A program made the translations under genes and the position numbers. The notes below the pieces were generated by a model, which was not told the DNA's origin, searched no databases, and worked only from the letters and a program-made list of their open reading frames with translations. From the NCBI GenBank assembly GCA_948144175.1, contig CANXME010002588.1, positions 62,001 to 126,000 of the forward strand: a DNA stretch of 64,000 nucleotides, given 5' to 3'. Below, piece by piece: positions 2,793 through 58,692 of the stretch (position 1 is the stretch's first letter; every line of letters begins with the position of its first letter). The stretch is from Closterium sp. NIES-65 (lineage: Eukaryota; Streptophyta; Zygnematophyceae; Desmidiales; Closteriaceae).

Positions 2793-4700
2793 CCGGGACC
2801 AGTAGCAACAGTAGTACCTCCAGCTCCAATAGCACGGCTCTAGCGCCGGGCAAACCACTCGCGCAGCTCCTACGGAGAGAGTGGCTCCCGCCTCGACGAA
2901 GCACCGCCTGCGGCCACACGAGCAGACCCAGCGTCCCCAGGCTACGCACCCCCACGCTCCGCACCCCCAGGCTCAGCACCTCCAGACTCATCACCCTCAG
3001 ACTCAGCACCCCCAGTCTCAGCACCCCCAGGCTCAGCACCCCCAGACCCGGCACCCGCAGGCTCAGCACCTCTAGCAGCAGCTGAGTCAACAGCTACCTC
3101 GACAGGCTCGATTGCATCTACTTGCGACACACCTGACGGGGCAGGACCCTGAGGGGGGAGGGGGTCTACCGGGTGAGGACCTGGTGCAAGGAAGAGCGGC
3201 GGCGGGGGAAGGGGCGCGGCGCGGTAGGGGAAGAGACAGTAGTAAGGCACTGACTCGTCAAAGGTGACGTCCTGGGAGGACAGAACACGGCGCAAGGTGG
3301 GGTGGTAAAACTGCCAACCAGGTGCGTCAGGGGGGAAGCCAAGATAGACACAGGGAACAGCACGGGGGGACAGCTTGTCTGTAGACAAGTCGCGGACAAA
3401 CGCCCGAGATCCCGAGACCCGAAACGCAGACGCATTGCCAACCTTCCCCGTCCACCGCAAGGTGGGGTGGTCTCTGGCAAGGAGACTGGTAGTTGAAGGT
3501 TGAGCTGATGCGCCGCGTACTGAACCGCAAACGGCCACAGAAAATGGGGGGCAGCCGCATGGATCATGGACGTACGAGCGACGTCCATGACCATACAAAT
3601 GCGGCGCTCAGCAATCCCATTTTGCTGTGGAGAGGCCGGAAGCGTGAAGGTCTGGCGGATGCCCTGTGCACGTCAGAAGGCTCCCAGACGGGCAGAGGAA
3701 AACTCCCCGCCTCTGTCAAAGTGTAGACGCAGAACAGAAAAGTCCGAGCCGAAACTCTCTCTGAGATGGAGACGAGCTGCGCGGATCCAGTCGATCAACA
3801 CCTCAGTGACGGCGCCCTTGCTGCGCAAGGGGAAGACTGTGGTGTAACGCGAGTAGTCGTCAACCACCAACAGGAAGTAACGCTCGTGCCCCTGGCCACG
3901 GACGCGGGCGGGGCCCCACACGTCCATGTGAAGAGTCTACAACGGAGCCTGTGTCGGAGGAAACTCGGAGGAGTGAGGGGCGGCGCGCTGTCGCCCCTCA
4001 ACGCAGGGGACACAGGTAGGGGCAGTCTCCGGAGGTAGAGGAGGGAGAGACCGGGGGAGACCAGAGACAAGGACACGGGAGGCCATGCCTCGGAGACGAG
4101 GTAGAGAGGGCTGACCAAGGCGGTGGTGGCAAAGGAGAGTCTGGTGAGACAGGAGACGACACGAGCAGGGAGCCGACTCAGGACTAGACCTGGACGCTGC
4201 AGCAAACACCTGACTCGACGCAGCGACCTGACCAGGTTCAGCAGCCAGAGGAGACTTAGTAGTGAGGGTGTACAGGCTCGACCCCGGTCGACGGGTGCAC
4301 GTGGCCATCTGTCGACCTGTCCGAGCACACGTGCAGTGGGTCACCCGCTGACTCGCAGGAGTGAACTGGTCAACCCCCCTATCCTGTAGATCAGCGCCAC
4401 TCACCAAGTTCGTAGAGAACGAGGGGAGGTAGAGACCTGACAGGGTGCTAGAGGGGGCTGCCGGACACGGTAAGACAGTGGAGAAGCTAGCAAGGACAGG
4501 ACCCCTAGAGGGGTCCGCCAGGGAGACCGCAACCGGCCGACTAAGCGGCCTAAGTGTGGTGCGGTCCCGAAAGAAGGAGCGGGAAGCACCCGAGTCAAGG
4601 GTGAAGGTGTGTAAGGCCTGAGCTGACGTGGTACCTGAGAGGGCAGACTCATTAGCACCTAGGGCAGTAGACGTGCTAGCACCTAGAGCAGTAGCCTCTT
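2793..4700 (-). pseudogene. E2 copia protease, integrase and linker start
   Basis: Reads leftward. The aspartic protease motif DSGASRSFFRD lies near 4575-4610. The integrase HHCC region follows, with core Asp in MDVWGPARVRG (about 3900-3927) and in LHFDRGGEFSS (about 3690-3720), then QQNG near 3620. The linker (2942-3120) is a run of GAEPGG-type pentapeptide repeats. Several frames are needed, so the region carries frameshifts and is a pseudogene. Confidence 0.85.
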
Positions 4701-8170: not shown

Positions 8171-9019
8171 TACACGCGAGGTCTTCAACCGCTTAGTTCC
8201 GGCCTTTCCAAACCGCGGGGGCGACGACGAAAGTGCCGATACGGGTATGTAAAACCAGTTCCGCGCAATTTTTCTAAAGTCCCCCTCGATTCGGTTTTCG
8301 AACACCCCTCAGATTTACTGGTGGAAAGGTTGGAGTTTCGACCGTTCGATCGAGTTTCATCTCAACGGCCCAGAGAATTTCGCCCAAAAAAGTTGGAATT
8401 TGGAGCGTCGGATCGATTTTCTCCTCAACGGCCAAGATCGGACGCGAATTTCGCCTAAGGGAGATTTACGCAACCTACAAAATTCGCGCTCGTCGATTCT
8501 ACAGTCAATTTGACTCGCAGTAAGTCGACCAGCACCTAGAATTCGATTATTTTCGTCGCGCATCTTCGTGTAAATCGCCAAATGGAGAGAAAAAGGAGAT
8601 ATTTCAGTACAGAAAATCGCGGAGTTACATGCTAAGCATAAGCAAATACATGCGGCGCTCCCACGACTCAAAAAACTCCTTGCGAACCTGTCGGCAACCG
8701 CCATAGCAGCAGCGACAACAGTAGGAGCAACAGCAGCGGCAACACCGACAATTCTACATGCGACAACGGCAGCAGCTACAGTTAACCTCGAAGCAGTGAA
8801 GCTGAGGCTACCGGAGGCGTTCGATCCTACAGTAAAAAGGAACAACGTTCGTCGATTTGTAGCTGAACTCGAAATCTACTTCGAAGCCGTTAGATGCACG
8901 ACCCCGACAAAAGACGCAATGCGCATACGGCTCGCAGCAACACTGTTACGAGGCCCAGCTCTAGAGTGGATCAACAACAGAATAGTCCAAGGCGAGGGGA
9001 CGTGGGCGCAGGTTCCGGC

Positions 9020-9160
9020 TGTCAGTAGATCTGCACTATGGATGCCCGATTGATCCTGGAGAGGGTTACAGGCGCGTTCGCCTAGGGGGTTATGGGCGCA
9101 CTTACACGCTACTGAAACAAGCCCTTTTATCCCAATGGTCTAGTGGTTGGGATTCTGACA
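9020..9160 (+). repeat. TRIM 5' LTR
   Basis: 141 bp. Its last 31 bases (9130-9160) carry a tRNA-Glu-like 5' half, including an A-box-like TGGTCTAGTGG at 9136-9146. Confidence 0.93.
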
Positions 9161-9194
9161 TGGTATCAGAGCGGTCTCGGGTTCGATTCCCGGT
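9130..9194 (+). other. tRNA-Glu-like sequence spanning TRIM LTR and primer site
   Basis: 65 bases resemble a eukaryotic tRNA-Glu from the acceptor 5' strand to the end of the T arm. TCCC and the D arm with TGGTCTAGTGGTTGGGATTC lie in the LTR. The T arm CGGGTTCGATTCCCGGT follows the primer site, with a B-box match GGTTCGATTCC at 9180-9190. The total equals the spacing in the tRNA-Glu I recall. The anticodon arm is replaced by the LTR end plus TGGTATCAGAGCGG, and no 3' acceptor strand pairs with the 5' end. It is therefore not a functional tRNA gene. The T-arm block is nearly palindromic, so it could partly be an extended complement of tRNA-iMet. Confidence 0.7.
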
Positions 9195-9253
9195 GTATGC
9201 ACATGTAGGCCGTTGCCGCAATGCTTAGTCCTGGGCCTCCCAGTGCGGGGGGG

Positions 9254-9394
9254 TGTCAGTAGATCTGCACTGTGGATGCCCGATTGATCCTGGAGAGGGT
9301 TACAGGCGCGTTCGCCTGGGGGGTTATGGGCGCACTTACCCGCTACTGAAACAAGCCCTTTTATCCCAATGGTCTAGTGGTTGGGATTCTGACA
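9254..9394 (+). repeat. TRIM 3' LTR
   Basis: 141 bp, differing from the 5' copy at three bases (ATGG/GTGG, CTAG/CTGG, ACAC/ACCC). It ends with the same tRNA-like 5' half, here followed by gypsy gag rather than a T arm. Confidence 0.93.
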
Positions 9395-10029
9395 CCGGCA
9401 GCACTGATCGAACAGTTCGACACGTTGAACAGTACCTACTACGGAACACGACGCAACAAGCCAACTAGTGGCATGGGGCGATTGGCACCACCCACGACTG
9501 CCGACCCGATGGAGAACGATGAGGGCGATGTGGAGCAGCGGCTAGCAAATAATGAGACGTGCAAATTTTGCGGCCCTACAGGACATCGTATCTTGGCGTG
9601 TTGGAAAATGGAGAGAAGGTGTGCGGAGCTGAAGGACAAGAACAGTGCGGCACCCCCGAAGCAGAAAACGGACAAGGTGGCAACTTCGGAGAGGGCGAAA
9701 AAAGGAGAATATGGTGGCGCAAATTTAAAACGTCACGACCAGCCGGCACCAGGGGAAATCGCCGAGACTAATGGAGGATCCGCGAAACAAGACCCTGCAC
9801 CGACCAGGAAACTCCAGCCGTATACCCCGACAAGTAAGAATATTACTTCTCGTGGTTTTCAAGCCTTTATTAAGGGAGAGTCAGAAATTAAACCTGTACC
9901 GGGTATTATGGGGACCCTACTCCAGAGCGCTAATACGGGAAGCCTACACAGCTGCAAAGGCTTAGTGGAAGGTTCCAGGCCCAAGAGAAGCCGAATCGGC
10001 CTCAGATAAATCCTTCTAACCTTTCTCAG

Positions 10030-37887: not shown

Positions 37888-40800
37888 GTCCCGCCTGACC
37901 CAGGTATAGGACCTGCTGCTCTAGCTACTGGTGAGGCTGCTGCTCTGGGTGCTAGTGAGTCTCCTGCTCCAGGTACAGGTGCGGCTGCTGCTCTAGGTGC
38001 TAGTGAGTCTGCTTCCTCAGGTGCGGGTGAGGCTGCGCTCTCAGGTACCGCGTTGGCTTCGGCCTCCCTCACCTTTACACTTGACTCTGGGGCTTCTCGC
38101 TCCTTCTTTCGGGACCGCACCACACTCACGCCGCTTGGTCGGCCGGTTGCAGTCTCCCTGGCTGACCCCTCTGGGGGTCCTGTCCTCGCTCACTTCTCCA
38201 CTGTCCTCCCGTGTCCGGCTGCCCCCTCGGGCACCCTGTCTGGCCTGTACCTCCCCTCGTTCTCGACGAACTTGGTGAGTGGTGCAGACCTACAGGATGC
38301 GGGGGTTCACCAGTTCACTCCTGCGAGTCAGCGGGTGACCCACTGCACGGACGCACGCACAGGCCGGCACCTGGCCACGTTCTCGCGTCGGCCGGGGTCG
38401 AGCCTCTACACCCTGACCACTGAGTCTCCTCCTGTCCCCGCGTCCGGTCAGGTAGCAGCGTCGGGTCAGGTGTTTGCTGCTGCGTCCAGGTCTGGTCCTG
38501 AGTCTGCCCCCTGTTCGTGTCGCCTCCTGTCTCACGAGACTCTTCTGTGGCACCACCGTCTAGGCCACCCCTCCTTGCCCCGTCTTCGGGGCATGGCTTC
38601 CCGTGTCCTTGTCTCTGGTCTTCCCCAGTCTCTCCCTCCCCTTCCTTCGGGACCAGGACCTTCCTGTGTCCCCTGTGTCGAGGGGCGCCTCAGGGCTGCT
38701 CCTCACTCCTCCCAGTTTCCCCCGACAGAGGCTCCTCTGCAGACGCTTCACATGGACGTGTGGGGCCCAGCCCCCGTCCGTGGGCAGGGTCACGAGCGCT
38801 ACTTCCTGTTGGTGGTTGACGACTACTCGCGTTACACCTCAGTCTTCCCCTTGCGCAGCAAGGGTGCTGTCACTGAGGTGCTGATCGACTGGATCCGCGA
38901 GGCTCGTCTCCAGCTCAGGAGGAGCTTCGGCTCGGACTTTCCTGTTCTGCGTCTGCACTCTGACCGAGGTGGGGAGTTCTCCTCTCGCCTTCTGCGAGAC
39001 TACTGTCGTGCACAAGGGATCCGCCAGACCTTTACGCTTCCGGACTCTCCACAGCAAAATGGGATTGCTGAGCGCCGCATTGGCATGGTCATGGATGTCG
39101 CTCGTACGTCCATGATGCATGCGGCTGCCCCCCATTTTCTGTGGCCGTTTGCGGTTCGGTACGCGGCGCATCAGCTCAACCTTCACCCCAGGGTCTCTCG
39201 GCCCGCGATGTCCCCAGTGTTACTGTGGACGGGGAAGGTTGGCGATGCGTCTGCGTTCCGTGTCTGGGGATCTCGGGCGTTTGTCCGCGACTTGTCTGCG
39301 GACAAGCTGTCCCCCCGTGCTGCTCCCTGTGTCTTCCTTGGCTTCCCCCCTGACGCTCCAGGGTGGCAGTTCTACCACCCCTCCTCTCGTCGTGTTCTGT
39401 CCTCCCAGGACGTCACGTTCGACGAGTCAGTCCCCTTCTACCGCCTCTTCCCCTACCGTACTCCTTCCCTTCCCCCCCCACCGGACTTCCTGGTACCAGT
39501 TCCCCCCCCGGTAGACCCCCTCCCCCCTCAGGTTCCTGCCCCTTCAGGTGTGTCCCAGGTAGACACGGTCGAGCCAGTCGAGGTTGCTGCTGAGTCTGGT
39601 CCTGCTGTGGGTGCTGAGCCTGGGGGTGCTGCTGCTGGGGGTGCTGAGCCTGGGGGTGCTGAGCCTGGGGGTGCGAGGCCGGGGGGTGCTGAGTCTGGGG
39701 GTGCTGAGCCGGGGGGTGCTGAGCCGGAGGGTGCTACGTCAGGAGCTGCTGAGCCTGGGGGTGCTGGGCCTGGAGGTGCAGAGCCTGCGCCTGCTGGACC
39801 TGGGGGCTCTCCGGTTCTTCCGTCTCGGCGGGAGCCGCTCTCTCCACAGGAGCTGCGCGAGTGGTTTGCTCGCCGCTGGAGGCGTGCTGCTGGAGCTGGA
39901 GCTTCTTCGCCTGCTGAGGGTGCTGCCGGTCCCGGAGCTGCTGGGCCTGCGGGTCCTACTGGAGCTGGAGCTACTGAGTCTGGGGGTGCTGAGTCTGGAG
40001 CTGCTGAGCCTGGAGGTGCTGAGTCTGGAGCGGCTGTGCCTGGGGGTGCTGAGTCTGGAGCTGCTGAGCCTGGGGTTTCTCCTGCTGCTGCGTCTCGCCG
40101 AGAGCCCCTCTCTCCCCAGGAGCTGCGTGAGTGGTTTGCTCGCCGCTGGAGGAGTGCTGCTGGAGCTGGAGCTTCGTCGACCGTCGAGGGTGCTGGTGCT
40201 GCCGGTCCCGGAGCTGCTGGGCCTACGGGTCCTACTAGAGCTGGAGCTGCTGAGGGTGTTGGTGCTGAGACTACTGCTGTCTGTCCTGGCGGTGGTTCTG
40301 CTGCTGGTGCTGCTGGAGGTCCTGCCGCTGGAGGTGTTGGTGGCGCTGGTGCTGTCGCTGAGGGTGCTGGTGCTGTCCCTGCTGAGTCTGGAGCTGCCAC
40401 GCGGCCTCGGCCGTACTTCGTTCCGCTCCTACAGCAGGTTCTTGGTCTTTCTCCTTCGGTAGAGTGTCCACAGCCTGTCCAGTCGCAGTCACTGTTGGAG
40501 CCTTCCTCTCCTCTGCCTGCTCCCTCTCCTTACACTGGTCCTACTGGAGGTCTTGCTGAGCGTCGTGAGCCTGCGTCTCGTCCCGCGTCGCCTGTTCGTG
40601 CTACTCGCGCTAGTGGTCGCGGTTCGCGTCAGCGTCCTCCTCCTGTCCCTGGCACGCACCGGATGTCTCTGCGTCCGTCCACTGCTCCTCTGCGTGCCCC
40701 TTTGCCTTCTCCTCCTGAGTCCTCTCTTCCTGCGCTTGCCGACCCTGCGTCGGACTCTCTTCGCGCTGCCAGTCCTACTGTCACGCGTCTGCTTGCTACT

Positions 40801-42648
40801 GTCGTCACTGACCCCTCTTTTGAGTCCACTGCTGCGTCTGCTCTAGTCGCTGAGCTCGTTGACTTTGCTGCTCGCTGTCGTCTCGACTACGCTGCTGGTC
40901 TTGTTGCTGAGTCTGCGTCTGTCTGTCCTCCGTCCGTCGGGGGTGAGTGTGCTCTTGGCACGGACGTCCTAGAGGACAGACAGGAGGAGTTACAGTGTCT
41001 AGCGGCTGCTTCACCTCATCTCGCGTCTGTACTGCTTGCCCCTGAGGGAGACCCGGATGCACTAGACATCCCGACTCCGCGTTCTTACGCGGAGGCCGTA
41101 GAGGGTCCCTACTCCTCTCAGTGGCAGGCAGCTATGGATGCAGAGATGGCTTCCTGGAAGTCCACAGGCACCTACGTTGACGCAGTTCCCCCTCCTGGGG
41201 CGAACATCGTCAGTGGCATGTGGATCTTCCGGGTGAAGCGGCCGCCGGGCTCTCCACCTGTCTTCAAGGCGCGGTACGTTGCTCGTGGCTTCAGTCAGCG
41301 GCAGGGAGTTGACTACTTTCAGACCTTCTCTCCCACCCCGAAGATGACCACTCTTCGGGTGCTGCTGCACATAGCCGCTCAGCGCGACTACGAGCTTCAC
41401 TCTCTCGACTTCAGCACTGCGTTCCTGCAGGGTAGCCTGCACGAGGAGATCTGGCTGCGCCGTCCACCTGGCTTCACTGGGACTTTCCCTCCTGGCACCC
41501 AGTGGAGCCTCCGACGGCCAGTCTACGGTCTCCGCCAGGCACCGCGTGAGTGGCACGACACACTGAGGACTACGCTGGCGGCACTTGGGTTTGCTCCTTC
41601 TACTGCTGACCCGTCTCTGTTTCTGCGCACCGACACTTCACTGCCGCCGTTCTACATCCTCATGTACGTCGACGACTTGGTCTTTGCCACAGCGGACACT
41701 GCTGGACTCGCCTACGTGAAGTCCGAACTGCTGAAGAGACACACGTGCACAGACCTGGGTGAACTGCGCAGTTACCTTGGCTTGCAGATCACTCGGGACA
41801 GAGCACGCCGCACCATTACCTTGACTCAGTCACACATGGTGCAGCAGGTCCTTCAGCGCTTCGGCTTCACGTACTCCTCGCCTCAGGCCACTCCTTTGCC
41901 TACTCGCCACTCACTCTCAGCTCTGCCTTCGGATGAGTCCGTAGAGTCGAGTGGTCCGTATGCAGAGCTTGTTGGCTGCCTCATGTACCTGATGACCTGC
42001 ACACGACCTGACCTTGCATACCCTCTGAGCATTCTTGCACGCTATGTTGCTCCTGGGAGACACAGACCAGAGCACATGGCTGCAGCGAAGAGGGTATTGC
42101 GCTACCTGTGCAGTACGTCGGGCATGGGGCTTGTGCTTGGAGGGCGGAGTCCAGTGGTCCTTACCGGCCACGCGGACGCTTCTTGGGCTGACGACCAGGC
42201 TACGCAGCGGTCGTCACAGGGTTACACCTTCAGCCTTGGTTCCGGCTCTGTCTCGTGGCGGTCTACTCGCTCGTCTTCGGTTCTCGGCTCCAGTTGTGAG
42301 GCTGAGATCTACGCCGGGGCCATGGCTGCACAGGAGCTTCGCTGGCTCACCTACCTGCTGACTGACCTTGGAGAGCCGCCTCGTTCTCCTCCAGTGCTGT
42401 ACGTAGACAACAAGGCCATGCTGGCCTTGTGTCGAGAGCAGCGCTTGGAGCACAGAACGAAGCACATTGCTCTCCGCTACTTCCTTGCTCGTGAGCTGCA
42501 GCAGCGTGGTCAGTTGCGACTTGCGTACGTGGCCTCTGAGGCCAACACTGCTGATGTGTTCACCAAGGCACTCGCGCCTTGTGACCATCAGCGCTTTTGC
42601 ACCCAGCTGGGTCTTGTGCCTGTCTTGCCTCACTTGCTCTCCTCTTGA
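37888..42648 (+). CDS. E8 copia polyprotein: protease, integrase, linker, RT, RNase H
   Basis: Open for 1586 codons after the TGA at 37885-37887; the first strong start lies near 38053. Order: protease DSGASRSFFRD (about 38083-38115); integrase zinc ligands HHRLGH (about 38551) and CVPC (about 38668); catalytic MDVWGPAPVRG (about 38752), LHSDRGGEFSS (about 38955) and QQNGIAERRIG (about 39052-39085); linker with GAEPGG repeats (39600-39790) and two SPQELREWFARRWR motifs (39841, 40111); Ser/Pro-rich stretch; RT starting near 41120 with YVDDLVFAT (about 41663-41690); RNase H with HADASWADD (about 42169), SSCEAEIY and YVDNKAMLAL, ending TAA/TGA-free to 42648. All catalytic residues I could check are present. 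It copies element RNA into DNA and integrates it in virus-like particles. Without its own gag it would need capsid from another copy. Confidence 0.93.
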   Translation, partial: VPPDPGIGPAALATGEAAALGASESPAPGTGAAAALGASESASSGAGEAALSGTALASASLTFTLDSGASRSFFRDRTTLTPLGRPVAVSLADPSGGPVLAHFSTVLPCPAAPSGTLSGLYLPSFSTNLVSGADLQDAGVHQFTPASQRVTHCTDARTGRHLATFSRRPGSSLYTLTTESPPVPASGQVAASGQVFAAASRSGPESAPCSCRLLSHETLLWHHRLGHPSLPRLRGMASRVLVSGLPQSLPPLPSGPGPSCVPCVEGRLRAAPHSSQFPPTEAPLQTLHMDVWGPAPVRGQGHERYFLLVVDDYSRYTSVFPLRSKGAVTEVLIDWIREARLQLRRSFGSDFPVLRLHSDRGGEFSSRLLRDYCRAQGIRQTFTLPDSPQQNGIAERRIGMVMDVARTSMMHAAAPHFLWPFAVRYAAHQLNLHPRVSRPAMSPVLLWTGKVGDASAFRVWGSRAFVRDLSADKLSPRAAPCVFLGFPPDAPGWQFYHPSSRRVLSSQDVTFDESVPFYRLFPYRTPSLPPPPDFLVPVPPPVDPLPPQVPAPSGVSQVDTVEPVEVAAESGPAVGAEPGGAAAGGAEPGGAEPGGARPGGAESGGAEPGGAEPEGATSGAAEPGGAGPGGAEPAPAGPGGSPVLPSRREPLSPQELREWFARRWRRAAGAGASSPAEGAAGPGAAGPAGPTGAGATESGGAESGAAEPGGAESGAAVPGGAESGAAEPGVSPAAASRREPLSPQELREWFARRWRSAAGAGASSTVEGAGAAGPGAAGPTGPTRAGAAEGVGAETTAVCPGGGSAAGAAGGPAAGGVGGAGAVAEGAGAVPAESGAATRPRPYFVPLLQQVLGLSPSVECPQPVQSQSLLEPSSPLPAPSPYTGPTGGLAERREPASRPASPVRATRASGRGSRQRPPPVPGTHRMSLRPSTAPLRAPLPSPPESSLPALADPASDSLRAASPTVTRLLATVVTDPSFESTAASALVAELVDFAARCRLDYAAGLVAESASVCPPSVGGECALGTDVLEDRQEELQCLAAASPHLASVLLAPEGDPDALDIPTPRSYAEAVEGPYSSQWQAAMDAEMASWKSTGTYVDAVPPPGANIVSGMWIFRVKRPPGSPPVFKARYVARGFSQRQGVDYFQTFSPTPKMTTLRVLLHIAAQRDYELHSLDFSTAFLQGSLHEEIWLRRPPGFTGTFPPGTQWSLRRPVYGLRQAPREWHDTLRTTLAALGFAPSTADPSLFLRTDTSLPPFYILMYVDDLVFATADTAGLAYVKSELLKRHTCTDLGELRSYLGLQITRDRARRTITLTQSHMVQQVLQRFGFTYSSPQATPLPTRHSLSALPSDESVESSGPYAELVGCLMYLMTCTRPDLAYPLSILARYVAPGRHRPEHMAAAKRVLRYLCSTSGMGLVLGGRSPVVLTGHADASWADDQATQRSSQGYTFSLGSGSVSWRSTRSSSVLGSSCEAEIYAGAMAAQELRWLTYLLTDLGEPPRSPPVLYVDNKAMLALCREQRLEHRTKHIALRYFLARELQQRGQLRLAYVASEANTADVFTKALAPCDHQRFCTQLGLVPVLPHLLSS

Positions 42649-51569: not shown

Positions 51570-54500
51570 ATGGTCGCAATTAGGTCTGTTAGCCCGTCGC
51601 TCCCGCTCCTAGTAATACTCTTCCTCCTCATAGCTTCCTCGTCCTCTCCCCACTCGCCTTGCTCAGCCACCCGCGCCGCTACCATCGGCGCGCAGTTGCC
51701 ACCTGCCCCAGTTCCGCCCGTGACCAGGAACCGCGATGCGAACAGTACCAGCGTCTACACTCTTCTGCCCCGCGCGTGGCACCCACCGTTGATCCTCTCC
51801 TTTACTCATGAAGCAGTGCAGTCGCCGCGTCAGCGCCACGTTTTCGGGCGGAAGTCGGGGCGGCCCGTAGAAGCGGCGGAAGTTTTTCCGCAGTCTGCGG
51901 ATTGGCGGGCGCCGGAGTCAGCCGCGCGCGGGCGCTCCCTGGCGGCTTCCGCCGCCGCCAGCGGCGCCGACGAGGGCGAGTGCGACGTAGAGTGGATGCT
52001 GCTGTGGCCGGCGCGACAGGGATGCTGGCGGCCGCGCATGACGGCGCAAGGCAGAACTTCCGCGCGCGTGACTTCCGCCACCTCCTCCTCCGCGCACCGC
52101 CAAGCTACCACGCAAAGCCTGACTTCCGCAGGCGCTGTGATCGCGCAGGCTTCCGCGCCTCCCCCTTCCCCTCCCGACGACCGGCCAGGCGACGGGGATG
52201 GGGGGAGCACTCCGCCCGCGGGGAACGAGGCGCGGCTGACACCCGACAATGAGATCATCGGCGTGTGCCGATTCGGAGGTGAGATATCCGCGATATAGAG
52301 TTGTGACGTCCTTCAAAGAACAGGAGGACCCTGTGAAGGGGGGGGATACTCCCATTGGACTAGGGCTGCGGCCAACGGGGGGTCAATAGGGGCGGCGGAG
52401 GGTCTATGTGGGCAACGGATGGGGAATGAGGGCAAGGGAGGGGCAATGGGGGCAATGAGGGCGGCAATGGGAGGGGGGGGGGCAATGATCATGGCAATGC
52501 TCCGCAATTGATCGCATGATGATGCGATCATACGCGCGTGCAGGTCTGGGAGGGAGGTATCCGCGTTTAGAGTCGAGGTGGGTGGATGAGCAGGAGAGAA
52601 AACGCTGTAAGTGTTGAGCCAGAGCAGGTGGCAGCAAACGATGTTCTCATTATAGCCAGCATCGCAGTTAGTGTTAGACCATCTTCGTCATGCCCTCGCT
52701 GTGCCCCCGCTGTGCCCCCACTGTGCCCCCGCTGTGCCTTGAGTCCCGTTGGCTGGCTCAATATCTTCTCTCCTTTCCTTCCCAACGTCTTCTTTCCGTC
52801 TCCTCCCCTTCACCTCTTTCTTCTCTCATTCCCTTTCGTTGCCGCGCAGCCCCCTCCACCATCACCATCGCCCTGGCTGGAACGGACAGACGTGGCGAGG
52901 CTGGGGCACTTCGCTGGCATGGTGAGTTGCTGAGCTGGCATGGTGAGTTGCTGATCTGACATGGTGAGTTGCTGATCTGGTATGGTGAGTTGCTGAGGTG
53001 GCATGGTGAGTCGCCTAGCTGGCATGGTTACCTGCTTAGCTGGCATGGTTCCATGTCTCATGTCTCATGTCTCATGTCCCTTGTCTCATGTCTCATGTCC
53101 GATGTCTCGTGTCCCATGTCCCATGTATCGTGTGCACGCACACTCTCCCACCTCCCATGCATCAATACCGCTTACCCCTTGCCCCTTGCCCTTTGCCCCT
53201 CCCAGGTTCGCCAACTACGTGGGCAAGCTGCCGGACGACCAGTTTGATCTCATAATGGATTTACTCCTCGACAAGGACAAGGGCATCGGACTCAACTTGG
53301 CCTGCTACCTCATTGGCAGCAGCGTCAACTACACCAACAGCCCCCAGTTCCTCACCGCCGCCTGGGAGACCCGCTCCATCCCCGGCTTCCGCGTCCAGCC
53401 AAACGGGCCGTACGACTGGACGGCGGACGGGCGGCAGAGGCGGACAATGCTCGCCGCCCTGGCGCGGAATGTGGACGAAGTTGAGGCGGTGTCGTACTCG
53501 CAGCCCTGGTGGATGACGGTCAGTGGGGACACTGCCGCGACAGAAACAGGCAAGTGCAACTTAAAGCCCGAGTACTTCCAGGCGTACACGGAGTATCAAG
53601 CTTCGGTGATCGAGCATTACCGCACGCACTGGAACGTGACTTTCTCGACCATGACCCCGGCGAATGAGGCGTTGGAGGGGTGGTGGACGCAGGGCCACAA
53701 GAACGAGGGGTGCAACTACAGCCCTGAGAAGCTGACCACTCTTATCCGGCTCCTCACAGCCACCTTAACGAGACTCAAGCTGCCGACAAAAGTCGCGGGG
53801 TTTGACAGTTTCGTCGGCGCGACTCTCCAGTACACGTTCAAGTTCCCTGCTGCGTTGAAGGCCGGCCTGTTTCGGCTGAATGTGCATGGGTACATAAACC
53901 CGCCGCCCAGCACGGCAGACACTCAGCAGTACATGGAAGGTGTGATGGTGAGCATGCACCGCATGGCGACCGGACTAGGGAAGGAGGTGTGGGTGTCGGA
54001 GGTGGGGCCGATGTGGGTGAGCGGGAATGATTTCGGTGTGATGCTGTTCACGGCGCGGCAGATAGTGGAGACTGTCAACATCATGGGGGCTTCGGCCTGG
54101 ATTTTCTGGCAGGCTGTGAGTGGGGTGGGAGGGAACAACCCATACGCGTTTCTGAAATGGGGGCTATTGGCGGTCAGGATCTACCGGCTGAACGACACAG
54201 AAGTCAAGCCGTTGGATCTGGTGATCTCCAAGAAGCTCTACATGCTGCAGCAGTTTGTGCGTGGGGCGCCGAGAGGAAGCCTGCCTTTGCGAATCCACAC
54301 ATCGGACGGGTGCCAGCACTGCATTGCCGCCTTCTTCCACCCCGACCAGCACTTCGTTTCGATATTCATCGTCAACCAGCGCGACACAACACACACAGCG
54401 ACATTTTCATTCGAGGATTTCGTGCCGTTTGACGCGGGGCAGGAGTGTGTGTTGGAGACGTATCGCACGTCAGCGACGGAAAATAACACGCTGGTGGCGA

Positions 54501-55036
54501 CTCAAAGTTACACAGACGTGCCAGCTTTGATACAGGTGGCGGCGCTGGGCAGCTCGATGACTTCTGTGGTGCTGCGGAATGTGGACCCCGCGTACGGATG
54601 TGCTGCTTGCAGGGATGGTGCATTTTACATCGGAGTGCTTAGCATTGAATTTAGGGGTCTTAGCATAGCGCTGCATCAGTACTGCTGGCTGCAGGGTTTG
54701 ACGCGGGTCAGGCGGGTGTGGTGCGCACGTCAGCCACGGAGAACAGCACGCTATCCGGAGGGAGCTACTCCGATGTACAGGTGGCTGCGCTGGCCTGGTC
54801 TTTTGCATCTGTGGTGCTGCACAAGTTGGCTGGCCCTTGCATCCTGCAGCAATGGTGCTGGTTGGAGAGTTACACAAGGCAGAGCCGCTCACAAGTGCTG
54901 CGTGTGCTGCGCAAAGTGCACACCACGCGTATTGGCATACATAGTGATGATGGCATGGCATTGGTCGAGAGAGCAGAGCTGCTCTTTAAAGCCGAGTCTA
55001 CAAGTGGCTGCACTGGGCTATATGAATCCTGTGTAG
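51570..55036 (+). CDS. GH30-family glycoside hydrolase (endo-beta-1,6-galactanase-like), frameshifted
   Basis: Inferred exons: 51570-52278, 52850-52921 and 53206 to at most 55036; introns GT..AG (donors GTGAGA and GTGAGT). Exon 1 starts MVAIRSVSPS with a hydrophobic signal-like LPLLVILFLLIASS, then a long Ser/Ala/Pro-rich region, so the product is probably secreted or wall-located. Exon 2 encodes STITIALAGTD then, one base out of phase, TWRGWGTSLAW, the GH30 N-terminal signature. Exon 3 continues FANYVGKLPDDQFDLI. The likely acid/base Glu is in TPANEALEGWW (GAG 53666-53668) and the nucleophile Glu in EVWVSEVGPMW (GAG 53999-54001). Family members cut beta-1,6-galactan side chains of arabinogalactan proteins; substrate here is inferred. 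The beta-domain ends near SSMTSVVLRNV (about 54580); sequence to 55036 looks like read-through. The frameshift at 52887-52889 means a pseudogene, a sequencing error, or an unseen splice solution. Confidence 0.75.
52279..52849 (+). other. GH30 intron 1 (571 bp)
   Basis: Donor G|GTGAGA at 52279, acceptor GCGCAG at 52844-52849, preceded by a pyrimidine-rich stretch. G-rich and GGGGGCAATG-like repeats occupy about 52335-52500. Retention would end the protein at a TAG soon after the donor. Confidence 0.7.
52911..53046 (+). repeat. Minisatellite of about 21 bp repeating the exon 2 / intron 2 splice donor
   Basis: The unit GCTGGCATGGTGAGTTGCTGA, which is the exon 2 end plus donor, recurs about six times with point changes (GATCTGACATGG, GATCTGGTATGG, GAGGTGGCATGG, CTAGCTGGCATGG). 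Several units keep GTGAGT; the last two have GTTACC and GTTCCA. Confidence 0.85.
53047..53137 (+). repeat. 7-bp CATGTCT/CATGTCC minisatellite in GH30 intron 2
   Basis: About twelve copies of a 7-bp unit (CATGTCT, CATGTCC, CGTGTCC), ending in CATGTATCGTGTGC. It lies between the donor array and the exon 3 acceptor CCCAG at 53201-53205. Confidence 0.85.
54697..54840 (+). pseudogene. Tandem copy of the GH30 C-terminal segment
   Basis: FDAGQAGVVRTSATENSTL..YSDVQVAALAWSFASVVLHKL repeats the authentic FDAGQ..YRTSATENNTL..YTDV..QVAALGSSMTSVVLRNV (about 54430-54585), in a different frame from the main ORF. It is preceded by CTGCAG|G, which could act as a splice acceptor and make it an alternative last exon. 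Confidence 0.65.
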
Positions 55037-55651
55037 CGATGGCATGATCACAAGGGAGGGAGCTGCTCCTCCGGCCAGGTCGTCGGTACAAGGGGCTGCA
55101 GGCTGCGGCCTCGTGGCAGGCAGCCATTGCACAGCCTTGCACAATTGGGACTCCCTGCGGTTGCACAGTTACCACTAGTTAACTAGAATAAGTATTCACC
55201 CTGCCTAGTGCAGGCGGGGTTACTAGCAAGGACCACAGAACAGAGCTATGATGCCGTGTACGCGGACCCTGCATAGCATAGCAAAAAGTATCACGTTGTT
55301 AGTACATAAGGTATTGTCCCCTGCGTTGTTGCCTGAACCATCTGGGTGTATGGTTAGAGAAAGCAGAGCTGTGCATTCTGGTTTTGAGATGGAAAATTGT
55401 GTGCCAGGTGTCTACAGCTGTTCATGTGTACCGGTAAGGGGATTTGCGTGTGGATGACACATGCATGTGCTTGTTGATCAAAGAAGGTGCTTCAGGTCAA
55501 ACCTACTAAGGTAAACTACGGTAAGGTACCATCAACGCTATACATTAGCATTGCAGCCAGCGCTAGGGTGACTAGCAAAGCATCAGTAAAAAAACATCAG
55601 CGACAATTGCACACCTGAAGCGTACAACTATAACTTATGCCACAGCTAATC
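55037..55651. other. Intergenic region between convergent genes
   Basis: No coding signal recognised. This should hold the 3' ends of the GH30 gene (from the left) and the kinase gene (from the right). Confidence 0.6.
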
Positions 55652-56839
55652 TCACACCACCATGGCAGAAGCTGCCTCCACGCCTGCCCTCAGATCCGAG
55701 CCTACACTGAAACCCAGACCTGCTTCCGAGCCTGTCCTCAAACCTGCCACGCTGGTGTGGCAATGCCGGAGGATCCAAGGATGAAAGAGGATTTGCGCGG
55801 CAGTGGGACGCTGCTGGGGGTTCCTCTGCAGCAGGCACAGCACAAGCCGCTTTGCCTCCTCCGACACTCCCGCCCACTCCTCGCCACTTAAATCCACCAC
55901 GCCTTTCAGCACCTCCACAAACACGTCCTTATCCGTCGGGCCCCAGAAAGGCGGCGCCCCGCAGAGCAAGATGTATAGAATCACGCCCAGAGACCACACG
56001 TCGGCTTCTAACGCGTATTCGCCTAGGAGGACCTCAGGAGCCATGTAGAACGGCGATCCCGCGACGCCCATTGCGCGATTGCCTGATTGCAGGGGAACCG
56101 CAAGGCCGAAATCCGCGAGTTTTGTGGTTAGCGGTGCGGTGGAGAACGGTGCGGAGGGGTCGCGCGTGAGCAGGATGTTTTCCGGCTTGAGATCGCGGTG
56201 GAGGACGCCTCGCGCGTGGCAGTGTGCGACGGCCGATGCGACCTGTGCGAACACGTTCGCAGCGTCGCGTTCACTCAGTCGCCCGCGTCGCACGACTTCG
56301 TCGAACAGTTCGCCGCCTTCGCACAGATCCATGACTAAATGCACTGAATGCTCGTCCTCGAAAACTCCGCGCAATTGCACCACCCCGGGATGCGCCACCC
56401 CCTGCGTCTCCCCAGCTCCGCTTCCGCCAACCCGCTGCATCAGCGCAACTTCTCGCCGCACCTCCTCCTGCTCCGCCTCGCTTCTAAGCCTGTCCTTGGA
56501 GATCGTCTTGCACGCGAAGCGCGCGCCTGTAAGCCGCTCGGTGCAGCGTCGCACGGTCCCGAACTGGCCGGTTCCTAAGACATGAGAGTCTAACGAAAAG
56601 AATGATTCGAGAGGGGCTGTTTGGAACGGAAGGACTTGACCATGCGACGACGGCGACAATGGCGACGTTGGCGACGAGCAGCGATCCTGGGCTTGGTCGA
56701 CCCATCGCAGCTGTGATTCAGGCTGCGACGAGGCGTCGGGCTGATGTTGCTGTTTCCTCTGCGACCTTACGGTATGCGACTTGCGAGTGTCTCGCACGCT
56801 GCTGCGATCTGTTGGTGCTTGCAGAGAGAAGTGGGCCAT
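55652..56839 (-). CDS. Ser/Thr protein kinase, CDPK/PEPRK-like, no EF hands
   Basis: A single-exon 395-residue protein from ATG 56837-56839. A Ser/Gln-rich N-terminal tail (1-80) precedes a complete CaMK-group kinase domain (about 84-356). Features: glycine loop GTGQFGTV (89-96); ATP-binding Lys 111 in ACKTISK; alpha-C Glu near 130; HRDLKPEN (214-221) with catalytic Asp 216; DFG (243-245); GSPFYMAPEV (261-270); DVWSLGVILYILLCG (280-294); HPWI at the domain end. It should phosphorylate Ser/Thr. The domain resembles plant CDPKs and PEPRK/PPCK kinases, but the C-terminus is only about 40 residues, with no junction segment or calcium-binding EF hands. It is therefore more like the PEPRK/PPCK side, and calcium control would not be intrinsic. 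It converges with the GH30 gene. No frame damage seen. Confidence 0.92.
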   Translation of the reverse strand: MAHFSLQAPTDRSSVRDTRKSHTVRSQRKQQHQPDASSQPESQLRWVDQAQDRCSSPTSPLSPSSHGQVLPFQTAPLESFFSLDSHVLGTGQFGTVRRCTERLTGARFACKTISKDRLRSEAEQEEVRREVALMQRVGGSGAGETQGVAHPGVVQLRGVFEDEHSVHLVMDLCEGGELFDEVVRRGRLSERDAANVFAQVASAVAHCHARGVLHRDLKPENILLTRDPSAPFSTAPLTTKLADFGLAVPLQSGNRAMGVAGSPFYMAPEVLLGEYALEADVWSLGVILYILLCGAPPFWGPTDKDVFVEVLKGVVDLSGEEWAGVSEEAKRLVLCLLQRNPQQRPTAAQILFHPWILRHCHTSVAGLRTGSEAGLGFSVGSDLRAGVEAASAMVV

Positions 56840-58692
56840 TATGGCTGATCGAATCTGATAGAGCAGTTAGAAGCTTGAAGGAAGAGTGGGTGCTAGTAGC
56901 GACTACGGCGACCAGTACTTGAAAATATCAACGAGTTAAGTAAATGCCGCAGACAAGTTCGTACCGGGAGTTCGAGCAGCGAGTGCTAAGAAACAACCAG
57001 ATGCAGAAGGACTTGAGTTTCCGGATTCTGTGTTGAGTACCTGGCATGGCTGCTGCATACTTATGCGTGAGCGTGACGGTGAGATTTCTCTCGGCCTTTC
57101 CAGAACGAGCCGCTCCAAGACTCTCCAAGTCGCGATCCTTCTGGTTGCTTCTGGCTCACGCTCGCGCCTTCCATTTTCTCTGTTCGACAATGCCAAGTCA
57201 GTCGTCGTGGTTGTGCGAACCGCAGGTTACCCTTACTGCCAATCAGCGATTCGTGCAGCTGTCTCGTTTGAGCCCACACCTGTCGCCTAGTAGTCGTCGT
57301 CGAGTCTGTCGGTGTCGTCGGAAGCAACGAACGAAGGTCAACGAAGGGTGCAGAGAGCCTTCGCGCGAGGTCACTTTCGTTTCTGTGACGCCTGTCAGTT
57401 GCTCGGCGGAAGTAAAAAGGCGAGGATTTTTGTTCGAGTGTGGCGTGGCAATGTGCTCTGATTGGTCTCGCTCCGCCAACCTCAACTTTGGGTCGGCTCT
57501 GGACTGCACGGCACGGCAGACGTCAATTCACATAACCGTCGCAGAAAGATGACCGAGGCTTCCATGCGAAACACTTTCGCGGATATTTCAAGTCTGTACT
57601 CGTTACAGTCTGTGCTAAGCTGCTGGACAAGTGAAAGGAAAACATTGTCTCAAGGCCTTTCACCATAAGTTGTGCATCGAGTGTACCCTGACAGAAATCC
57701 CAGAATAGGGGCTTCTGCTTCCTTCAGACCTCGGCAGGTGTGTTGACAAGCATCACCCTTGTGGCCCTGTGTGGCTAAGTGAACTAACTTCGCTTGCCCC
57801 TCGACACTATCAGTGTCCATGGCACCCCCATTCCGCTGAGATAACGCCAACGGAATGGGCCTCCAAGCGTCGGCGTTCGTGGCATCGTGTGTACCTCCAA
57901 CGTCGCCTAGCGATGCGACCCCCGTCGGCTTCCCCCACGCGCGTGCACCCTTTCGGCGCCGAACCAGCGAAACGGACGGCGAACCCAGCGAGGGTTCCCC
58001 ACGCCGAGCCTGCCATCCAGTTTACCACTTCCATCGTGTTGTCTCGATGTCATCGCGTCGCATTGGCATCTCGCATATCCCATCCAGGGTTGACCAAATT
58101 TCCACGCCTGATGGCGGAGCGAGCGTCACCCGCTCCACGCCATGATCGTCACAGCGATCCATTTCGTCCTGTACTGTACCACCGCGCGCCAACTTTTCTC
58201 TCGCTCCTACCCACCCCATCCATCGCCTCGCCAGATGCGTGAGATCCTCTTCCCGCGAGCTCTTCGACGAATACCCCTTGCACGGGAGTTTGTCGCAATG
58301 AGACCTCTTTCTCCTTTCACGGAGTCCGTCAGTGGCAGGTGTTCTCGCAGCTCGCTTCGTCCTCAGGCTGCTCGCAGCTGTGCTCCGGTTTCGAACCGGG
58401 TTGTCAAGCGCTTTCCCTTGCACGCGAGGCGTTGCACCAGTTCTGCTCGCAGTCTGGTTTTGCCATCTCCTTTCACTTGCAGCTTTGCGGCTTACACTCT
58501 CTCAAGTCGAATTGGCACAGTGAACTAGCAGTACTGGTTTCCAGTAGCACCATCAGCACCGGGAGGTGATTGCGATCGGCTTCTTGCCTGGCGGCGATTA
58601 GTTTCGCAGCGGGCAAAGTATTTTTACTACTTAACTACCTGCCATGTTGTCGCGGAGTTGTCGCATCCTATCGCTGGTAGAACTGGCGACAG
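56840..58692. other. Intergenic host DNA upstream of the kinase
   Basis: About 1.85 kb with only short ORFs on both strands and no motif I recognise. The first few hundred bases should contain the kinase promoter (minus strand). It ends where degenerate copia E9 begins near 58693. Confidence 0.6.

Follow-up and report, generated by a model that had tools for sequence, protein, structure and literature searches.

The window, a stretch of 64,000 nucleotides from Closterium sp. NIES-65, carries a TRIM in which the two halves of a tRNA-type promoter appear to meet at the junction between the 5' LTR and the primer binding site (PBS). Judging from the sequence features described below, we put at roughly 0.6 the probability that the TRIM has a type-2 Pol III promoter divided between the two sides of the LTR/PBS junction, from which transcription would start near 9119 and end at the TTTT of the 3' LTR.

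The element occupies positions 9020-9394 (375 bp; all its features are on the + strand). It consists of a 5' LTR (9020-9160) and a 3' LTR (9254-9394), direct repeats of 141 bp (TGTCAG...CTGACA) that differ at three positions, and of a 93-bp internal region without a gene (9161-9253). The latter ends in the polypurine-like tract (PPT) GCGGGGGGG (9245-9253), and the insertion is flanked by the target site duplication (TSD) CCGGC (9015-9019 and 9395-9399). The short direct LTRs, the PBS, the PPT, a length below 1000 bp, the non-coding nature and the integrase-type TSD, which is also of 5 bp in other copies, identify the element as a TRIM.

This TRIM is nested in a Ty3/Gypsy-type element, whose downstream frames matched RVT_1, a Tf2-type SH3 domain and a chromo domain, with the integrase core scoring just under the cut-off (31.9 vs 32.6 bits). 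The frames flanking the TRIM on both sides gave no Pfam match; the right one contains a CCHC-like stretch, recognized by eye, and therefore gag is likely in these frames. The window also holds several Copia elements, among them an unbroken 1586-codon Copia frame at 37888-42648 on the + strand (RVT_2, rve, SH3 and gag pre-integrase). At 52997-56866, cellular-type frames are found amid retrotransposons, encoding a GH30-like glycosyl hydrolase (+ strand) and a protein kinase (- strand).

The PBS (9161-9173) begins directly after the LTR, with a gap of 0. Its 13 nt are complementary to the 3' end in 15 of the 23 places matched in the host by an initiator-Met tRNA (iMet) pattern that required GCTCTGAT, the counts covering that form. 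By hand count, these 15 end in ..CCTCGCTCTGAT or ..GGTCCGAGGATCGAAACCTCGCTCTGAT, or nearly so, and the remaining eight, with CCTGGCTCTGAT (six) or CCTTGCTCTGAT (two), pair over 12 nt. With a discriminator A and CCA, which we take to be present at the 3' end of the host iMet, the complement of the main form (TGGTATCAGAGCGAGG...) gives 14 paired nt in subfamily B, one more than the 13 of the window family. The perfect initiator-Met PBS noted in the sequence-only reading was thus confirmed for the main host form.

The A box, TGGTCTAGTGG (9136-9146), is D-arm-like and lies within the last 31 bases of the 5' LTR (9130-9160), and the B box, GGTTCGATTCC (9180-9190), lies in the internal region, beyond the PBS. 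Both are exact matches to the consensus sequences of these boxes (TRGYNNARNGG and GGTTCGANTCC), and their starts are 44 bases apart. The sequence-only reading had placed A-box-like and B-box-like elements about 45 bp apart in the block 9130-9194, and its coordinates proved correct to the base. A scan of both strands of the window returned 13 + 8 A boxes and one B box, with 9136-9146/9180-9190 being the sole A/B pair at a spacing of 30-80 bp. In 400,000 shuffles of either stretch, an A box arose in 0.28% of the LTR tails and a B box in 0.01% of the post-PBS stretches. Together with the genome-wide counts and their reversed-pattern controls, given next, these shuffles ruled out that the boxes are chance matches.

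The host assembly searched comprised 874 Mb in 2400 contigs. One of them is plastid-like and contains chlI, a gene that is not known from the plastids of land plants, which makes a streptophyte alga the likely host. The LTR tail TTTTATCC, followed after 19-31 nt by the PBS, was present at 3383 places, and at 2637 of these (78%) an exact B box followed 4-14 nt on. The PBS followed after 8-38 nt by an exact B box was found at 1256 places genome-wide; in nearly all of the 100 listed among them, a GAAGGTC-like stretch stood 5' of the T arm, and these places represent a second subfamily, B. The reversed-pattern controls for the three patterns gave 0 each. These counts are of places rather than independent insertions, with some insertions perhaps present twice. 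The flanks of L001 and L002, and likewise those of L082 and L090, are 99% identical over 400 bases, and each pair may be one insertion seen twice, as haplotypes or through a larger duplication. A 35-base core pattern had no match in viral contigs, and a distant search of plasmids gave none either.

A similarity search returned at least 43 matches, the window included, of which 41 were near full length, with 95-100% identity (40 of the 1376 first-look candidates were scored). Matches longer than 340 bp were kept (35 rows) and one below 93% identity was dropped, leaving 34 aligned copies. Identical LTRs were found in 11 of these 34, and therefore the family of the window TRIM has moved recently. 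A perfect 5-bp TSD flanked 24 of the 29 single copies in the fetched loci, a set that excludes five array rows of L024 and the divergent copy of L027. At L024, on the reverse strand, the TRIM forms a tandem LTR-internal array with PBS places at about 1173-2112, an arrangement also reported for Cassandra and further plant TRIMs. At L027, position 2116 of the + strand, a divergent TRIM-type LTR has another D-loop-like tail (ATGGTTATTGGC); since no PBS follows, a solo LTR belonging to a third subfamily is the probable reading.

We have then tallied the boxes at 65 PBS places with a TRIM tail in the window and the fetched loci, of which L001-L030 had been picked for similarity to the window and L061-L090 for an exact PBS and B box, so that half of the loci were chosen for having a B box. 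The tally was made without L001, which is the window place, and without L031-L060, which are organelle-type tRNA loci. The A box was kept in its 11-nt form at 57 of the 65 places, had a 10-nt form at three and was absent from five, and the B box was exact at 59, had one mismatch at four and was absent from two. Most copies with an LTR and a PBS thus retain both blocks, and the refuting condition set in the sequence-only reading, namely copies with LTR and PBS but no blocks, was decided in favour of that reading for most copies. In a separate set of 47 distinct LTR tails, hand-picked and leaning to rare variants, 13 lacked the A box. The B box, even with one mismatch allowed, was absent from both LTRs in all 34 subfamily A copies, and the 3' LTR of the window copy has an A box and no B box.

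The same loci and the window contain 16 PBS-like places without TRIM tail or internal sequence, some of which are perhaps not real PBSs, one mismatch having been allowed; A and B box were both absent from all 16. One further place, L080, where the TRIM is clipped by the locus end and has a one-mismatch B box, stands outside this group. Inheritance of the block from the leader of a helper element was a candidate that we rejected, as the block was not seen at these 16 places.

Subfamily B has an LTR of about 139 bp and an internal region of about 69 bp, and it was compared with subfamily A through one copy each (L066 and the window copy, respectively). The U3 regions matched at 68/87 positions in the 5' LTR and at 71/87 in the 3' LTR (78-82%); in the middle part of the internal region, 19/50 positions matched (38%, with gaps included in the count). 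Identity was complete over the final 46 bases of the 5' LTR, which run from AAACAAGCCC, over the PBS, which is followed by a 3-nt insertion, and over the PPT (9/9). The T-arm block matched at 14/15 positions, with the lone difference at the N, a free position, of GGTTCGANTCC. Conservation thus tracks the putative promoter, together with the primer site and the PPT.

The block had been described as tRNA-Glu-like, with the PBS in place of the anticodon arm. Its tRNA-type character stood, both boxes being exact, but the Glu label is unproven: no host tRNA-Glu gene was recovered, the 32 places obtained being, by hand count, 12 tRNA-Gly-UCC genes and 20 TRIMs. The D-arm core GTCTAGTGGT is common to the TRIM and host tRNA-Gly-GCC genes, and the T arm CGGGTTCGATTCCCGG is common to the TRIM and host tRNA-Gly-UCC genes, with 9178-9193 matching the T arm of the latter at 16/16 positions. 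The tRNA-Gly search patterns themselves contained these D-arm and T-arm letters (the T arm with one N), and such matches show that the genes exist rather than that they are the best match. The D-arm half may derive from a tRNA-Glu or from a tRNA-Gly.

Among the places of the GTCTAGTGGT type, C9:125451-125503 included, 40 of the 50 listed were recognized by eye as tRNA-Gly-GCC genes. By hand count, 39 of these 40 have an insert of 6-8 nt directly 3' of CCTGCCA, the usual intron position, and the gene at C1849:285314 is without it. Nuclear tRNA introns of green plants are found mainly in the Tyr and elongator Met tRNAs.

The likeness does not extend to a whole tRNA. ARAGORN reported no tRNA in the window and, at default settings, none in the element; below default, it proposed a mispaired "Val" in the element and, in subfamily B, an antisense "Arg" too. 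The Rfam tRNA family was not listed for 8900-9500 at E values up to 10, in an output that omits one lower-scoring match to an unnamed family of the same clan. The minimum-energy fold of the block consists of three neighbouring hairpins and not of a cloverleaf: a U5 hairpin, ATCCCAA (9129-9135) with TTGGGAT (9147-9153), which encloses the A box (9129-9153); an anticodon-arm-like hairpin over the LTR/PBS junction, TCTGA-CATGGTA-TCAGA (9154-9170); and a T-arm-like hairpin, TCGGG-TTCGATT-CCCGG (9177-9193). The block has no acceptor stem, and the element thus lacks both the cloverleaf and the acceptor stem of a functional tRNA gene. The ARAGORN and Rfam results, the fold and the missing acceptor stem ruled out a whole-tRNA mimic, and with it the earlier suggestion that the RNA mimics a tRNA for packaging or priming lost its footing.

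The three adjoining hairpins also speak for the most probable of the alternatives, which we nevertheless consider unlikely: that the block is an RNA structure serving reverse transcription or packaging, with Pol II transcribing the element and the boxes being by-products of a tRNA-derived structure. One U5 hairpin pair shows a linked change from A-T to G-C; it is A-T in 29, G-C in 10, G-T in four and another combination in four of the 47 hand-picked distinct sequences mentioned above, which were taken from listings and lean to variants rather than being the full set. One lineage, at 2 of 38 places, had a second compensated U5 pair; at most of the remaining 36, that pair is T.G. However, the box-defining bases are conserved to the same degree as the stems, and the covariation is tied to the subfamilies, perhaps reflecting one event. 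Moreover, the U3 has no TATA in any of the 34 copies (first 105 bases). Covariation, weak and subfamily-linked as it is, was rejected as proof of the U5 hairpin. The U5 structure may nevertheless act in reverse transcription, in addition to the promoter.

Retrotransposons commonly contain captured fragments, and the block might be a piece of a tRNA or SINE acquired long ago and carried as a functionless passenger. This is improbable to a high degree, as, besides the PBS and the PPT, the block is the best conserved part between the two subfamily copies, and 2637 places still have both halves, correctly spaced, with the PBS between them. The least likely reading is that the T-arm block is a second primer contact complementary to the T arm of the initiator-Met tRNA, a second contact with the primer tRNA T arm having reportedly been described for Ty1: T arms are nearly palindromic and the block fits the reverse complement of the host iMet at 12/15 positions, but the sense T arm of the host fits at 16/16 (in a gene picked by a pattern with that T arm), the match in subfamily B reaches into an AAGGTC variable-loop-like stretch, and the A box is left unexplained.

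We return to the split Pol III promoter. In this model, TFIIIC would bind both the A and the B box, and Pol III would start near the CAA motif at 9118-9120, the RNA beginning at about 9119; in plant tRNA genes, a CAA motif is found at the transcription start. The RNA would extend over 9119-9362, about 244 nt, and end at the TTTT of the 3' LTR (9359-9362), the putative terminator. Taken with the TTTT copy at 9359-9362, the CAA motif delimits a putative R region, AAGCCCTTTT (9119-9128), which contains the 5' copy of the TTTT (9125-9128). None of the 34 aligned copies deviates at either TTTT. The R overlap would thus be about 10 nt and the U5 32 nt, with strand transfer as in Cassandra. The initiator-Met tRNA would prime at the PBS and a Copia element would provide proteins in trans. 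Because the A and B boxes meet only at the 5' junction, a complete promoter would be missing from solo LTRs and from the 3' LTR. A TRIM transcribed in this way would count among the TRIMp3, the TRIMs that are transcribed by Pol III.

A run of four T between the two TTTT copies was absent in 32 of 34 subfamily A copies and in 22 of 23 subfamily B copies. Shuffles of one copy were free of TTTT in 47% of cases, which weakens this evidence, and free of TTT in 2.9%; a TTT was absent from the interval in 29 of the 34 A copies. Several points speak against the model. Some places have no consensus A box, as tallied above, and at seven places the internal region with the B box adjoins a Copia-type LTR end that has no A box; the subfamily comparison, moreover, is between single copies. 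The TTTT of the 5' LTR lies only 6-9 nt past the assumed start, and TTTT is a minimal terminator; if it were leaky, transcripts would extend into the flanking DNA, which would simply lengthen the repeat. In addition, the conservation of the block could reflect a function in reverse transcription. Pol III transcription, which the sequence-only reading had advanced as one option, fits the boxes, the conservation of the block, the CAA and TTTT motifs and the box-free state of the other PBS-like places, all of which is support from sequence. The fuller proposal, of a tRNA promoter cut by the PBS and complete only at the 5' LTR/PBS junction, with the terminator supplied by the 3' LTR, promoter-dead solo and 3' LTRs, a streptophyte-alga origin and use of Copia particles, could as a whole go either way.

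Several loci link the TRIM to Copia elements, "Copia-type" here meaning likeness of the LTR end to those before other iMet PBSs in the window and the loci, and not of coding regions. A Copia-type LTR end precedes the TRIM internal region at seven places (L062, L064, L065, L069, L071, L073 and L083), all of which have the B box without an A box at the junction. In the five whose junctions were read (L062, L064, L071, L073 and L083), the next downstream LTR carries the A-box block, in some cases with single changes. At L073, GTATC flanks a 334-bp unit that combines a Copia-type 5' LTR with the TRIM internal region and a TRIM 3' LTR. L064 is a three-LTR array with the TSD TAGCT, in which the outer LTRs have the Copia-type end; this outer LTR form occurs at 2 places in the assembly. 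At L062 and L083, the TRIM LTRs are followed by a PBS-like stretch and unrelated sequence, and at L071 no TSD was seen. In contrast to the 34 TRIM copies, whose first 105 bases have no TATA, a TATA stands no more than 250 bases 5' of the PBS in each of four Copia-type LTRs that are joined to TRIMs. From the make-up of these chimeras we infer putative co-packaging and template switching with Copia elements, which would thus be candidate helpers of the TRIM.

The closest known counterparts in layout are the Helenus elements, described as TRIMs with tRNA-derived LTR sequence from fungi, animals and one plant, Selaginella (Kojima 2024, PMC10886601), with no alga listed in Table 1 of that paper. 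According to the same description, they share with the window TRIM the tRNA-derived A and B boxes and, in fungal and plant Helenus, a 5-bp TSD. The Selaginella family, compared by description only, is of similar size (LTR 120 bp, internal region 85 bp), and the fungal families are tied to Copia (PMC10886601), as the TRIM here may be. The motifs given there for most Helenus LTRs (TRGCY + YGG; GGTTC) have their counterparts in the window TRIM, GGTTC being exact and the A box, TGGTC...TGG, corresponding to TRGYY and not strictly to TRGCY. The two differ in that Helenus is reported to have the tRNA-like sequence in each LTR (PMC10886601), whereas here the A half alone is in the LTR and the B half lies past the PBS.

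Cassandra is described with a 5S rRNA promoter within each LTR, the PBS TGGTATCAGAGC and tandem LTR-internal arrays (PMC7215508), its RNA running from the 5' to the 3' LTR with a short R of 18 bp (PMC10886601). On these accounts, the window TRIM resembles it in the Pol III promoter, putative here, the same PBS, the short R and the tandem arrays, and it differs in having tRNA-type boxes that are split; Rfam 5S gave no match in 8900-9500 at E values up to 10. The parallel to Cassandra, already drawn from the letters, gained from the CAA start-like motif and the TTTT, which give a Cassandra-like R overlap. SMART/FRetro129 (PMC3281118) is likewise described as a very small TRIM with a Copia partner linked via the internal region, but with an LTR of 85 bp that has a TATAAAA motif, and the main text of that paper never uses the word "tRNA". 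In tRNA-derived SINEs (SINE2), as presented in PMC10886601, tRNA-type A and B boxes also drive a short non-autonomous element, which is without LTRs or PBS and is mobilised by non-LTR elements. According to a plant TRIM survey (PMC4717578), whose main text is also free of the word "tRNA", TRIMs are present in a lycophyte and in three algae, two of them green and one red.

A promoter split over the LTR/PBS junction was found nowhere in the literature searched, which was covered by titles and abstract starts and included few subscription journals. The initial view that no TRIM with this layout had been described therefore needs to be narrowed: tRNA-promoter TRIMs were already published in 2024 with Helenus, and, as far as these searches go, the new point is the split of the promoter across the LTR/PBS junction.

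If the split promoter is real, an LTR retrotransposon can use Pol III without carrying a whole promoter in each LTR, and the flanking host DNA would be spared a second promoter. The primer site would become part of the promoter spacer, and a further tRNA-based layout would stand beside Cassandra, Helenus and Ajax. Such an arrangement would also help to explain how the family came to be present at thousands of places in one genome.
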